From the IMG/VR virus record IMGVR_UViG_3300043395_000094, positions 1-23,835 of that record: DNA of 23,835 nucleotides. The stretch is one strand, 5' to 3'. The DNA is from a virus. Of this stretch, positions 4,997-13,121 are shown piece by piece. Within the stretch, counting starts at the first letter, position 1. Each line of letters opens with the position of its first letter. Below the pieces are notes generated by a model, which was not told the DNA's origin, searched no databases, and was given only the letters and a program-made list of their open reading frames with translations. The translations under genes and the position numbers were made by a program.

Positions 4997-6901
4997 ATGG
5001 CAACACAAGTACAATTTAGACGTGGTACTACTACTCAAAATAATGCGTTTACTGGCGCAGTTGGAGAACTCACAGTAGATACTGACGTAAAAACACTTCG
5101 TCTACATGACGGAACTACTCCAGGTGGTATAGGAATAATTAATACCCAGTCTACCCAAACATTACTTCAGAAAACTTTATCTACTGGTTCTGTTTGGCAA
5201 GGTAATGCTGTTGCTCTAGCGTATGGTGGTACTGGTTCTGCCTTAACTGCTTCAGCTGGTGCTGTTGCTTACTCTGGTGCTAGTGGTCTTGGATTAACTG
5301 CTGTAGGAACTTCTGGTCAAGTTCTTATTTCTGGTGGTACTGGTTCTCCTGTTTGGGTTAATACTTCTACTTTAACTGTTGGTACTGCAACCACTGCTAC
5401 AACAGCAACTAATATTGCAGGTGGTTCTGCTGGTCAGTTAATTATTCAAGCTGATACTGGTTTATCTACTTTCATTACTGCTGGTGCTTCTGGCACGTTC
5501 TTGCGTTCTGCTGGTGCTGGTTATGCTCCTACTTGGGCAACTGCTGACGTTACAATCGGTTCTACTGTTATTGACCTTGGTAGTAGTACTACTTCTCTTG
5601 CTGGTTTAAACATTATAGCTGCAACTGGAACTAGTCATTGGACTCTTCCAGTAGGTACTACTGCGCAACGTCCAGCATCTCCAGCCATTGGTATGGTTCG
5701 TTATAACTCTACTCAATCTACATTTGAGGGTTATTCTTCTGGATCATGGTCATCACTTGGTGGTGTTAAGTCTGTTGATGGATTCACTTATATTATTGCA
5801 GAAACATCAGCTGGAGCATCAAATGGAGAACTGGAGTTTTACGTAGAAAATTCTGCAGGTAATGGAACTACTAAGGCTGGTGGATGGACACAAGCTGCAT
5901 TAACTGTTAATAATAACTTGGTTGTTTCTGGAAACTTAACAGTAAACGGAACAACTACCACTATCAATTCTACAACATTATCTGTAGATGATTTAAACAT
6001 TGTTCTTGCTGATGGTGCTGCTTCTGCAGCAGCTGCTAATGGTGCTGGTTTAACAGTTGCAGGTGCTAATGCCACTTTATTATATGGTTCAGCTAGCGAT
6101 AATTGGACATTTAATAAATCATTATCAGTAACTGGAACTATTACATCATCATCTAATGCTTCAGTTGGTGGAACTTTAGGTGTAACTGGTGCTTCTACTT
6201 TAGCAGCTCTATCTGCTACAACTGGTAGCTTCTCTAGCACTTTAGGTGTAACTGGTGCAACTACTTTAAGTTCTACTTTAGGTGTAACTGGTGCAACTAC
6301 TCTCGCTGGTCTATCAGCAACAACTGGTTCTTTCTCTAGTACTTTAGCAGTAACAGGAACTTCTACATTTACTGGTGCAATTACTGCCAATGGTGGCGTT
6401 ACAGGTAATTTAACTGGTAACGTAACTGGTAATGTATCTGGAACTGCAAAAAATTTAACTGGCGCAGATGCCTATACTAATGGCACTGACGGATGGTGGA
6501 GAAGTAACGGACAAGCTGGTTGGTATAGCGCAACATATTCCGTAGGTATTTACGCTACACAAGCTGGTTGGGTTCAGACTTATAATTCAGCAGGTATTTT
6601 AGCTAATGCTTTCCAACAAGTATCTGATGCAAGATTAAAGAATAATATTATTGATTCGAAATATGGACTAGCAGAAGTTTTACAACTTCGTTCTGTAGAG
6701 TATGATAAGCAATCTGATGGTAAACATGATGTTGGTTTAATTGCTCAAGAAGTTGAGTCAATTATTCCAGAATTTGTATTTACTTCTGAAACTGATGGAA
6801 TGAAATCTATTAATTATGCGCAAATGGTTTCTGTTTTAGTTAAAGCAGTTCAAGAACTTTCTGCAGAGGTTAATGTATTAAAAGCCAAATTAGGAGAGTA
6901 A
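4997..6901 (+). CDS. Tail fibre protein with C-terminal S74 intramolecular chaperone
   Basis: A 634-residue fibre protein. Residues 1-50 (VQFRRGTT ... GELTVDTDVKTLRLHDG) match the small N-terminal domain common to phage fibre and tropism-determinant proteins. The middle is a Gly/Thr/Ser-rich array with many TLGVTGATTL-type repeats (about residues 390-460) and a LTVNGTTTTINST module shared with the gene at 1-2097. From about residue 543 comes SDARLKNNI, then YGLAEVLQLRSVEYD, DVGLIAQEVE and a C-terminal coiled coil: the peptidase S74 chaperone of endosialidase-type fibres. In that family the domain drives trimerisation of a beta-helical shaft and then cleaves itself off just before the Ser of the SDxRxK motif, here S543. 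The ATG at 4997 follows AGAGG. It is the last gene before the neck cluster. Host-receptor recognition is inferred. Confidence 0.9.
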   Translation: MATQVQFRRGTTTQNNAFTGAVGELTVDTDVKTLRLHDGTTPGGIGIINTQSTQTLLQKTLSTGSVWQGNAVALAYGGTGSALTASAGAVAYSGASGLGLTAVGTSGQVLISGGTGSPVWVNTSTLTVGTATTATTATNIAGGSAGQLIIQADTGLSTFITAGASGTFLRSAGAGYAPTWATADVTIGSTVIDLGSSTTSLAGLNIIAATGTSHWTLPVGTTAQRPASPAIGMVRYNSTQSTFEGYSSGSWSSLGGVKSVDGFTYIIAETSAGASNGELEFYVENSAGNGTTKAGGWTQAALTVNNNLVVSGNLTVNGTTTTINSTTLSVDDLNIVLADGAASAAAANGAGLTVAGANATLLYGSASDNWTFNKSLSVTGTITSSSNASVGGTLGVTGASTLAALSATTGSFSSTLGVTGATTLSSTLGVTGATTLAGLSATTGSFSSTLAVTGTSTFTGAITANGGVTGNLTGNVTGNVSGTAKNLTGADAYTNGTDGWWRSNGQAGWYSATYSVGIYATQAGWVQTYNSAGILANAFQQVSDARLKNNIIDSKYGLAEVLQLRSVEYDKQSDGKHDVGLIAQEVESIIPEFVFTSETDGMKSINYAQMVSVLVKAVQELSAEVNVLKAKLGE

Positions 6902-6902
6902 A

Positions 6903-7643
6903 ATGGCTGTCGTAACTTCTAGACAGGGGTTAAGAGATTATTGTCTACGAGCACTAGGTGCACCTGTTTTAGAAATTAACGTAGACGATGATCAATTAGA
7001 AGATCGTATTGATGAGGCATTGGAATACTGGAAACAATATCATTACGATGGCATTGAAAGAGTATATTTAAAACATACGGTAACTTCTGATGATATTACA
7101 AATCAATATATTCCTATTGCTGACGCAGTATACGGAATAACACGTGTAATTCCAATTTCACAAACATCATCTTCAAAGAGTCTCTTTGATATTCAATATC
7201 AACTTCGTTTACACGACTTATATGATTTAACTTCAACATCAATAATCTATTACAAAACTGTAATGGCGCATATTGCTTTGTTGGACATGGAATTAAATGG
7301 TCCACAGATGTTTAGATTTAATCGTCTTCAGAATAGATTAAACATAGATTTAAAGTGGGGTACTGATGTAAAGGAAGGAAACATTATTGTTTGTGAAGCA
7401 TATCGTGCTTTAGATCCAAATGAATTTTCAAAAGCATGGAATGAAACTTGGTTAAAGAAATATGTAACTGCATTGTTTAAAAAACAATGGGCAACAAACA
7501 TTAAAAAGTTTTCAGGAATTCAGCTTCCAGGTGGAGTCACTTTGGATGGCGATAAATTGTATGACGAAGCTGTAGGAGAAATTAAAGAGCTAGAGGACGA
7601 ATTACAAAATAAATCTGCTCCACTCGAATTTTTCCTAGGATAA
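6903..7643 (+). CDS. 13: Neck protein gp13
   Basis: A 246-residue protein starting one base after the preceding stop codon. The N-terminus (SRQGLRDYCLRALGAPVLEINV then DDQLEDRIDEALEYW) is the characteristic start of the T4 gp13 family. In T4, gp13 with gp14 forms the neck that closes the DNA-filled head below the portal and makes the platform onto which the finished tail docks. This copy is shorter than T4 gp13 (309 residues), as usual in marine relatives. It is directly followed by gp14, the expected partner, with a 1-base gap, so the two are surely co-translated from one message. No promoter is seen immediately upstream; expression would come from read-through of upstream late transcription. 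Confidence 0.92.
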   Translation: MAVVTSRQGLRDYCLRALGAPVLEINVDDDQLEDRIDEALEYWKQYHYDGIERVYLKHTVTSDDITNQYIPIADAVYGITRVIPISQTSSSKSLFDIQYQLRLHDLYDLTSTSIIYYKTVMAHIALLDMELNGPQMFRFNRLQNRLNIDLKWGTDVKEGNIIVCEAYRALDPNEFSKAWNETWLKKYVTALFKKQWATNIKKFSGIQLPGGVTLDGDKLYDEAVGEIKELEDELQNKSAPLEFFLG

Positions 7644-7644
7644 C

Positions 7645-8546
7645 ATGACTACAACAAATGTTTATTTTTCTCATGGAACCAGAAATGAGCAGCATCTAGT
7701 AGAAGATCTGATCATAGAATCACTGCGCATTTATGGTCAAGAAGTTTATTATATTCCAAGAACATTAGTTTCTAAAGATGACATTCTCGGAGAAGATCGT
7801 TTATCTGAATTTAAAACTGCCTTCCCAATTGAAATGTATTTTGAGAATGTAGATAATTTTGCAGGGCAGGGACACTTTATACAAAAGTTTGGTTTAATGG
7901 TTGAGCAGTCAGCTACATTAGTTGTAGCTCGTAGAAGATGGGATCAGTTTGTTGGAAGATATGGAGTAACAACATTACCATATAGACCAAATGAGGGTGA
8001 TTTAATTTATTTCCCATTATCAAAGGGATTGTTTGAAATAAAATTTGTTCAACACCAAGATCCATTTTATCAACTTGGTAAATTATATGTTTACAAACTT
8101 CAAGTTGAATTGTTCCAATATAGTTCTGAACGAATTGATACTGGCATTAAACAAATAGATAATTTTGAAACTCTTAAAACCTTTACAACAAATACCACAA
8201 GAACAGAATATGGTAGAATAGTCGATGTGAATATAACTAACCAAGGAACAGGTTATATCGGGCAACCAACAATTAATGTTACTGGTGGTGGAGGAATTGA
8301 TGCTGTATTGGAAGCAGTTATTAATGCTGGAAAAATTGTATCTATTAATATTGTAAATCCAGGTAAAGGTTATAACAGTACACCAACAATAACCGTAACA
8401 GGTGGTGGTGGAATTGGTGCTACTTTAGAAGCAGTTATTGAAACAGATATTGATAAAGTTGATTCTTACGGAGATAATAATAAGTTCAAAGAAGAAGCAG
8501 CTGATATTATGTTTAATGAGAATAATCCGTTTGGGGATGTAGTATA

Positions 8547-10958: not shown

Positions 10959-13121
10959 ATGCCTTTTCAACTTAGTCCTGGCGTTGCAGTCGTAGAAAAA
11001 GACTTTACCTCTATCGTTCCAGCAGTTTCAACTGCTGCTGGTGCTTTTGCTGGAGTGTTCCAGTGGGGTCCAGTTCTTCAACCTGTAACCATTTCTTCTG
11101 AAAACGAGCTGGTTCGTCGTTTCGGAAAACCTGTTGCTGATAATGCAAACTCATTTTTCACAGCAGCAAACTTTTTATCTTATACAAACAACCTTTTAGT
11201 TGTTCGTGCAGATACTCAAAATCACCGTAATGCTGTAGCTAGCCCATCTGGTACAGTTACTGCAATAACATTAGGTTCTGGTGGATCTGGATATACTTCT
11301 GCTCCAACAGCAACTTTAAGTTCTCCACAAATTTCTGGTGGTGTTCAAGCTACTGCAGTTGTAAATATGGCAGGTAGTACTGTTACATCAGCAGCTGTTG
11401 CTACTGGTGGTTCTGGATATACTGGTACGCCAACTGTAACATTTACTGCTCCAGTTGGTGGAACTGCTGCTACTGGAACTGTTCAAGTTACTGATGGTGC
11501 TGTTACTGGCATTACTATCACTAGCGGTGGATCTGGATACACTACAGCACCAACTGCTGTTATTACTGGTACTGGTACTGGCGCAACTGTCGGTGCTATC
11601 ACTCTTTCTGCTACTACTGTTGCAAGTATCACTGTAACTAATGGTGGTACTGGTTATACTTCTGCTCCAACTGTTACATTAACAGGTGGTGGTGGATCAG
11701 GTGCTGCAGCTACTGCAGTTGTTACAACTGGTGGCGTAAAAATTAATAACGAAAATGATTATCTAGTAACTTATGCTGCTGGTGCTGGTGTTGTTGGTGA
11801 ATTTGCTGCAAAATATCCAGGAACATTGGGTAACTCATTAAAAGTTTCTTTAGCAGACTCTTCAAGTTTCGCTACATGGACATACAAAGATGAGTTTGAT
11901 ACTGCTCCAGGAACATCTGACGCTGCTGCTTCTGTTGGTGGCGCAAATGACGAATTACACGTAATCATTGTTGATGAAGACGGATTATGGACTGGTACTC
12001 CAGGAACTATCCTAGAAAAATTTGCTTATGTATCCAAAGCAGGTGATGCTAAGAAATTTGACGGAACAAACAACTATTACAAAGATGTAATCAATTCACG
12101 TTCTCAGTATATCTGGTGGATGGATCACCCAACAGGTGGAACCAACTGGGGTAATAATATTGCAGGAACTTCATTTGCAAACTCTGCAGCTGTATCTCGT
12201 TCATTGGCAGGTGGTTTAGATGACCTAACTGCAACTGATGGCGAGCGTATTACAGCATGGAACATTTTCAGTGATGATGCAAGTTATGACATCTCATTAA
12301 TTCCAATTGGAAAAGCATCTCCAACTGTTGCTAATGCTGTTATCGCTATCGCAGAAAGTAGAAGAGATTGCGTAGTCTTCATTTCCCCACAAGATATTTC
12401 TACTACTGATATCATTAGCACTTCTAATAGTGGTGATGATGCAGTAAACAAAATTATTGCTTATCGCAATGCGTTAACAAGCACTTCTTATGCTGTGCTT
12501 GATTCTGGTTACAAATATCAATATGATCGTTATAATGACAAATATCGTTATGTTCCATTAAATGGTGACATTGCTGGTCTATGTGCTCGTACTGATTACA
12601 CTAACGATGCTTGGTGGTCTCCAGGTGGTTTAAATCGTGGTCAAATCAAGAACGTAGTTAAATTAGCTGTTGCTCTTGATAAAACTGATCGTGATAATCT
12701 ATACAAGAATGGTATTAACCCAGTTGTTACTTTCCCAGGAGATGGCACTGTTCTATTCGGTGACAAAACTCTATTGGCTAAACCAAGTGCATTTGATCGC
12801 ATTAACGTGCGTCGTCTGTTTATTGTTCTTGAGAAAGCAATTGCAACTGCTGCTAAGTATCAGTTATTTGAGTTTAACGATGCGTTTACTCGTGCTCAAT
12901 TCAAGAACTTAGTGGAGCCATTCCTACGTGACGTACAAGGTCGTCGTGGTATCACTGACTTCGTAGTTAAGTGTGATGATTCTAACAACACTGGTGAAGT
13001 TATTGATCGCAATGAATTCGTTGCTGATATCTTTATTAAGCCAGCACGTTCTATCAACTTTATTACTCTTAACTTCGTTGCTGCTCGTTCTGGAATTAAC
13101 TTCAGCGAGATTGGTGGCTAA
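10959..13121 (+). CDS. 18: Contractile tail sheath protein gp18 with four inserted GGSGY repeats
   Basis: A 720-residue sheath protein; T4 gp18 has 659. The N-terminus (LSPGVAVVEKDFTSIVPAVS, then TAAGAFAGVFQWGP) and C-terminal half (GDIAGLCARTDYTNDAWWSP, then GGLNRGQIKNVVKLA; FNDAFTRAQFKNLVEPFLRD; FVADIFIKPARSINFITLNF) are clear T4-sheath family signatures. The sheath wraps the tube and contracts at infection. Residues 98-259 are a Gly/Thr-rich array of four modules with GGSGY or GGTGY at 108, 150, 190 and 229, each followed by T-x-x-PT. In T4 gp18, residues about 98-188 form domain I, the part that sticks out from the sheath, so the array appears to occupy or enlarge that surface domain. The gene has its own late box and a good ribosome site, and gp19 follows. 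Confidence 0.96.
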   Translation: MPFQLSPGVAVVEKDFTSIVPAVSTAAGAFAGVFQWGPVLQPVTISSENELVRRFGKPVADNANSFFTAANFLSYTNNLLVVRADTQNHRNAVASPSGTVTAITLGSGGSGYTSAPTATLSSPQISGGVQATAVVNMAGSTVTSAAVATGGSGYTGTPTVTFTAPVGGTAATGTVQVTDGAVTGITITSGGSGYTTAPTAVITGTGTGATVGAITLSATTVASITVTNGGTGYTSAPTVTLTGGGGSGAAATAVVTTGGVKINNENDYLVTYAAGAGVVGEFAAKYPGTLGNSLKVSLADSSSFATWTYKDEFDTAPGTSDAAASVGGANDELHVIIVDEDGLWTGTPGTILEKFAYVSKAGDAKKFDGTNNYYKDVINSRSQYIWWMDHPTGGTNWGNNIAGTSFANSAAVSRSLAGGLDDLTATDGERITAWNIFSDDASYDISLIPIGKASPTVANAVIAIAESRRDCVVFISPQDISTTDIISTSNSGDDAVNKIIAYRNALTSTSYAVLDSGYKYQYDRYNDKYRYVPLNGDIAGLCARTDYTNDAWWSPGGLNRGQIKNVVKLAVALDKTDRDNLYKNGINPVVTFPGDGTVLFGDKTLLAKPSAFDRINVRRLFIVLEKAIATAAKYQLFEFNDAFTRAQFKNLVEPFLRDVQGRRGITDFVVKCDDSNNTGEVIDRNEFVADIFIKPARSINFITLNFVAARSGINFSEIGG
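11250..11735 (+). repeat. Four roughly 40-residue GG(S/T)GY-PT repeats in gp18
   Basis: Residues about 98-259 of gp18. Each copy carries V-x-x-I/A strand, GG(S/T)GYT-x-x-PT, a short beta strand and a Gly/Ala-rich turn (for example GGTGYTSAPTVTLTGGGG in copy 4). Spacing of the GY pairs is 42, 40 and 39 residues. The module matches the pair in gp14. Confidence 0.88.

Follow-up and report, generated by a model that had tools for sequence, protein, structure and literature searches.

Mobile β-domains on virion proteins are already known (PMC10684548; PMC6669499; PMC9230969). In the lactococcal 936 phages, both the neck and the major tail proteins contain CBMs, and host binding has been found for one example of each (PMC6669499). 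Sheath proteins may also have extra domains, commonly Ig-like, for which a contribution to adsorption or to stability has been suggested (PMC9230969).

The stretch of DNA analysed here (the window) is an IMG/VR viral record of 23,835 bases that holds a structural gene cluster of the T4 type, in the order gp13, gp14, gp15, gp17, gp18, gp19, followed by further genes (Table 1). The order gp13-gp14-gp15 is found here, with gp15 (PF16724, E = 2.4e-71) directly after gp14. Within gp14, the Pfam model T4_neck-protein (PF11649, E = 1.3e-34) covers residues 6-185 only, and the best Foldseek match of the predicted structure is T4 gp14 (9mkb, E = 3.6e-11), the match being to the core. Elsewhere in the window, the C-terminal segment SDARLKNNI of a 634-residue structural protein (4997-6901) resembles, by eye only, an S74-type intramolecular chaperone.

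Table 1. Coordinates of the genes and repeat units discussed in the text, as positions in the window.
Feature	Position	Strand	Evidence
gp13	6903-7643		assigned by HMM from annotated gp13s
gp14, T4-type neck / head-closure Hc2 protein, 300 aa	7645-8547	+	Pfam T4_neck-protein, PHROG 460, Foldseek
gp14 conserved core, residues 1-175	7645-8169	+	identity and pN/pS among 42 close relatives
gp14 linker from core to inserted domain, residues 176-187	8170-8205	+	AlphaFold2 pLDDT <50 at 178-184
gp14 module unit 1, residues 190-229	8212-8331	+	HMM iE 3.2e-12
gp14 module unit 2, residues 228-269	8326-8451	+	HMM iE 6.1e-16
gp14 C-terminal arm, residues 270-300, conserved NPFG end	8452-8544	+	alignment of 26 gp14s
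gp18 tail sheath protein, 720 aa	10959-13121	+	Pfam sheath domains; Foldseek T4 gp18, E 3.5e-41
gp18 module unit 1, residues 97-141	11247-11381	+	HMM iE 1.6e-13
gp18 module unit 2, residues 139-181	11373-11501	+	HMM iE 5.2e-09
gp18 module unit 3, residues 179-220	11493-11618	+	HMM iE 1.9e-09
gp18 module unit 4, residues 218-259	11610-11735	+	HMM iE 2.7e-15

A repeat shared by gp14 and gp18

Residues 190-269 of gp14 (8212-8451) form two repeats of about 40 residues that are homologous to four repeats in gp18 (residues 97-259; 11247-11735). A sequence-only reading had proposed that gp14 carries two copies of the gp18 module, and profile comparison bore this out. An HMM built only from gp18 units (133 units) found both gp14 copies (51.9 bits, E = 3.5e-15), compared with a maximum of 8.2 bits among 1000 proteins in which the gp14 repeat region had been shuffled. 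When gp14 pairs were aligned with gp18 pairs in hhalign, the probability was 99.0-99.6% (E = 3.5e-18 to 2.4e-23), and a family model refined on 349 non-redundant units gave 986 matches in real ORFs vs. 0 in reversed ORFs. By these results, gp14 and gp18 match at the level of profiles, contrary to the outcome that would have refuted the proposal.

The framework of the unit consists of an invariant G12 and near-invariant G14, Y15 and P19, and the 40-residue units are consecutive, two in gp14 and four in gp18. The motif originally read from the letters, GxGYxxxPTIxVTGGGG, is exact in gp14, but the gp18 copies vary and the TGGGG end is found in copy 4 only. Similarly, the span first assigned to the insert (8206-8442) does hold two copies, but the HMM boundary extends to 8451.

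The module sequence had no match in Pfam, NCBIfam or the PDB, and gp18 was absent among the 50 PDB matches listed for the gp14 model. A tblastn search of phages with the gp18 repeat region returned no match, probably through an effect of the low-complexity filter. The repeat is matched by the profiles of PHROGs 701, 5342, 2885, 708, 19630 and 460; these contain the same repeat, but they name whole proteins and give the repeat no function. A literature search, in which subscription journals were mostly outside coverage, found no paper naming the GxGY repeat, and the domain family appears to be unnamed in the libraries searched.

In an AlphaFold2 model of gp14 made from 58 gp14 sequences, the insert domain has a mean pLDDT of 86-92 and six predicted strands, three in unit 1 (190-199, 209-213 and 221-227) and three in unit 2 (230-238, 248-252 and 260-267), and it is flanked by segments with pLDDT <50 (178-184 and 274-290). 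The GxGY pair is thus, by prediction, an independent folding unit with flexible or loop boundaries. Among predicted viral proteins, the gp14 model aligned with a segment of M4SQ89 (1428 residues) over 78 columns at 0.6 Å and 46% identity, and, at 1.0-3.3 Å over 74-95 columns, with segments of several other large viral proteins, one of them a putative tail fibre protein. The gp18 model (pLDDT 79.9) matches T4 gp18, and its repeat region scores about 78-92, mostly near 90.

Because the overall gp14 model is mediocre (pLDDT 71.4, pTM 0.50), we infer the placement of the insert on the neck from T4. The C-terminal region of T4 gp14 (178-256), which is disordered in necks studied in isolation, makes contact with gp15 in the virion (PMC12270204). 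By this comparison, the insert would lie on the arm between the neck and the tail terminator. In the sheath, T4 gp18 domain I protrudes outward and makes no sheath-sheath contacts (PMC3004832). Since the gp18 modules of this phage occupy the same position, the modules most likely face outward on the virion.

An insertion slot in gp14 and the inheritance of its contents

The pair of units is present in all 80 nearest gp14 relatives (core 85-100% identical), save one cut by a contig end, and is therefore a fixed part of gp14 within the clade. Across the wider family, in an alignment of 26 gp14s, the contents of the slot that separates the core from the C-terminal tail differ greatly. The slot is all but missing in the Ackermannviridae SJ2 and 3M and in BUCT608, empty in Menderavirus, and short and nearly empty in the T4-like RB51. 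An unrelated repeat (FxxGE then SGAxAxV) occupies it in S-PM2, P-SSM4, S-SSM5 and C48C1, and up to 10 GxGY units plus this other repeat are found in S-SCSM1, P-TIM68, S-SKS1, S-CAM9 and their relatives. In S-CAM4 gp14, two GxGY units are nested within the other repeat, at a site that is uninterrupted in S-PM2. Since the slot may be empty, filled with another repeat or filled with up to 10 units, this part of gp14 is a bounded site of insertion, as had been supposed, and the alignment of relatives with and without the insert argues against an inherent part of the gp14 fold. What follows the insert is, as also claimed, a normal gp14 C-terminus, homologous to those of other gp14s down to the NPFG end.

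The other repeat (in more detail FxxGExVxGxxSGAxAxV, then LxV, then GxF) occupies the gp14 slot in many cyanophages, among them S-PM2, P-SSM4, S-SSM5 and C48C1 (loci L088, L092, L091 and L087), and it also lies C-terminal to the GxGY units in S-CAM9, S-SCSM1, P-TIM68 and S-SKS1. A gp14 of 390 aa (L031:7536-8705) has an extra segment of about 90 residues that interrupts the module region; this protein has no Pfam match beyond the neck core.

The two parts of gp14 evolve at very different rates. Among 42 close relatives, the core has a mean amino acid identity of 89% and a pN/pS of 0.117. For close gp14 pairs, pN/pS was 0.43 in the modules vs. 0.043 in the core, a difference of about tenfold, and with all pairs included, among which synonymous sites approach saturation, it was 0.64 vs. 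0.12. The module values fit exposed, changing surfaces as well as relaxed constraint. The glycine, tyrosine and proline framework of the modules is nearly invariant.

These observations bear on two alternatives to a role in outside binding. The module could be structural, reinforcing the neck-tail joint (the gp14-gp15 clamp) or the sheath rings and binding nothing outside the virion. The gp15-contacting arm of T4 gp14 adjoins the insert site (PMC12270204), extra sheath domains have been proposed as tail stabilisers (PMC9230969), and all 80 close relatives retain the domain. We nevertheless consider this role unlikely, given that relatives sharing the core have an empty slot or an unrelated repeat in it, that the modules evolve far faster than the core, and that the domain also occurs in unrelated proteins without gp15. 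Alternatively, the domain could be tolerated decoration, self-folding and harmless in loops, with no specific function in gp14. Its very wide spread over unrelated proteins, its pN/pS of 0.43-0.64, and the losses and replacements in the slot would be expected of such a passenger; however, none of the 80 close relatives has lost the reading frame or the pairing of the repeats, even though synonymous sites are nearly saturated, and this, with the near-invariant G, Y and P framework, makes it quite unlikely.

The occurrence of one module in two proteins of the same virion had been taken to suggest module shuffling within the phage. We compared 33 phages that have two gp14 units and four gp18 units (21 after removal of near-identical phages). 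In every class, the nearest neighbour of a unit was the same slot in another phage (32-33 of 33). Identity between gp14 and gp18 units of the same phage was 0.364, vs. 0.358 when permuted (21 phages; p = 0.063 for the mean, p = 0.21 for the best pair). In a tree of two-unit domains, whose deep branches are not reliable given the short sequences, the gp14 domains of the clade group together, and the first and second gp18 pairs form separate groups. Within this clade, each module copy is inherited vertically in its host protein.

The two gp14 copies of this phage are 60% identical to each other, vs. 28-49% in the other 20 phages, and therefore a local duplication or conversion inside gp14 is suggested. 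This unusual likeness, together with the presence of homologous units in two proteins of one virion, is what could be said for recent shuffling, in which either gp14 or gp18 would have received its copies from the other within one lineage. Against the clustering by protein and position, the permutation result and the splitting of gp14, first gp18 pair and second gp18 pair in the tree, such shuffling is exceedingly improbable, and we reject recent gp14-gp18 exchange for this clade. Over evolutionary time, however, the module is mobile; it is shared by gp14 and gp18, and it has clear insertion boundaries in the gp14 family.

Other insertion sites and carrier proteins

In gp18 of this phage, the modules follow residue 96 and separate the first conserved segment from the remainder of the sheath protein. 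The gp18s of DLP6, HTVC008M, Mosig, Melnitz and BUCT-ZZ01 have no modules at this site. Xanthomonas phage X1, Acidovorax phage ACP17 and Stenotrophomonas phage BUCT608 also lack units there, but have two at about residues 238-323, in a sheath loop that is empty in this phage, DLP6, BUCT-ZZ01 and HTVC008M. Because these two units lie in a different loop, they suggest that the domain entered gp18 independently in these phages.

Other proteins of the virion carry the module as well. Among the sampled loci, a two-unit pair is found in gp13 (L322, L323 and L328) and in gp15 (L294, L308 and L315). In gp13 the pair lies in an internal loop (L322:2689-3696, L323:8990-9727 and L328:5999-7006); the L323 frame is cut short after about 246 codons. 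In six long relatives of this phage (110-175 kb), each record has 10-18 module matches. One of them (the record of L020) has modules in gp14, in gp18, in gp53 and in a gp8-type baseplate wedge protein of 858 residues, and another relative (L455) has one unit in a further structural-type protein.

The unit was also present in 62 of 67 loci from bacterial and archaeal genomes, frequencies that are not estimates because the scan was pattern-limited, and the commonest count per frame was again two (28 of 64). Carriers that we checked in bacteria include two prophage sheath proteins, lambda-type tail-tube proteins, SusD/RagB lipoproteins, a multicopper oxidase and a DUF2589 protein. One two-unit insert each is present in three lambda-type tail-tube proteins (L486, L504 and L501) and in two phage sheath proteins from bacterial genomes (L498 and L520). 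The two-unit pair is thus the recurrent insert, being found in gp13, gp15 and gp18 of other phages, in the lambda-type tail tube and in SusD. In SusD/RagB-like proteins of Bacteroidetes, the GxGY pair follows a conserved RRRAYG-type motif (L483, L484, L488, L489, L506, L531, L542 and L543); the SusD/RagB assignment comes from Pfam for L488 and L543 and from sequence resemblance for the other six.

This distribution also bears on the idea of a common partner coating neck and tail, which the sequence-only reading had raised. The modules would then be docking sites for a phage component, for instance whiskers or the long tail fibres in their retracted state. Retracted fibres are bound by gp18 domain I in T4 (PMC3004832) and are also held by the T4 neck fibres (PMC12270204), and the gp18 modules of this phage lie at the domain I position. 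Carriage, however, differs between groups: both proteins have modules in this clade, only gp14 has them in the S-CAM9 and S-CAM4 groups, and only gp18 in X1, ACP17 and BUCT608, and phages with units in only one of the two proteins are common in the sampled sets. Moreover, the domain occurs in at least four virion proteins of the long relatives, in tail tubes of the lambda type, and in SusD proteins and multicopper oxidases of bacteria, and gp14 and gp18 units do not co-vary by phage. A docking function is therefore very unlikely, and the proposal of a common partner is not supported.

Possible surface function and relation to known systems

By analogy with other virion β-domains, and from the association of modules with CBM-like segments in relatives, we lean, at slightly better than an even chance, towards an uncharacterised, widely shared insert domain that would give weak, multivalent surface attachment. 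In this reading, the gp14 segment is one autonomous insert domain of about 78 residues, built from two 40-residue GxGY repeats of three strands each and placed in a flexible arm between the core and the C-terminal tail, the part that in T4 contacts gp15. The sheath protein carries two such domains in tandem at the position of T4 gp18 domain I. Both belong to a large uncharacterised family whose members entered virion proteins, and some proteins of bacteria, in repeated independent insertions, with vertical inheritance of each copy within its host protein after insertion. On the virion, the domains would be exposed along the sheath and around the neck, where six gp14 subunits would be expected if the neck is built as in T4, and they would attach weakly and multivalently to cell-surface glycans or other envelope polymers, as Ig-like domains and CBMs are proposed or known to do on other phages. 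A general surface function common to the gp14 and gp18 modules is plausible.

In searches of Pfam, neither gp14 nor gp18 of this phage matched a CBM family, and neither matched an Ig-like or Big family (E ≤ 1). A gp8-type protein of a relative (L454:13321-15894) has a CBM_5_12-like segment of about 55 residues among its GxGY units (E = 7e-5, below the Pfam gathering score). In another relative, the tail sheath module (L045:13329-15668) has an inserted segment that is 55% identical to this gp8 piece, and a search of that insert for a Pfam CBM match found none.

A shared GSNY motif and the strand count had led us to suspect that T4 gp18 domain I (98-188) is homologous to the modules. The hhalign probability was 1-3%, which is not significant, and in control tests 9% of background windows and 5-21% of shuffles scored as high; the homology is kept as a lead only. 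A broader reading, in which the 78-residue GxGY domain serves unrelated phages as a general plug-in for adhesion on contractile sheaths, tail tubes, necks and baseplates, does the same on proteins for glycan uptake in bacteria, and includes T4 domain I as a diverged member, is unlikely.

Rigid phage machinery, including the neck protein that seals the genome, thus repeatedly accepts the same small domain, as do sheath, tube and baseplate proteins. Defining the GxGY domain would annotate together the repeat regions of many virion proteins and some bacterial proteins, and would make testable the presence of weak host-binding patches over the whole tail, beyond the fibres.

T4 gp18 domain I (3FOA, 98-188) has the same position in the sheath protein as the modules of this phage and is likewise described as six-stranded; it faces outward, as the modules most likely do, but it contains a helix (PMC3004832), and the predicted GxGY repeat has none. 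Phage Ig-like domains are also small mobile β-domains, for which weak carbohydrate contact has been proposed (Fraser et al., 2006, as cited in PMC10684548; for sheaths, PMC9230969). Unlike these, the GxGY domain has no Ig-like Pfam match, consists of two 40-residue repeats, and is inserted in loops and arms. The lactococcal 936 phages likewise have interchangeable β-domains in the neck and tail proteins of one virion, with modules swapped between phages (PMC6669499). They differ in being siphophages of Gram-positive hosts, with recognised CBM folds and demonstrated host binding, and their NPS is a separate collar protein, whereas the carrier here is the head-closure protein. What is new is a GxGY domain in a T4-type head-closure protein as well as in the sheath, with independent insertions.
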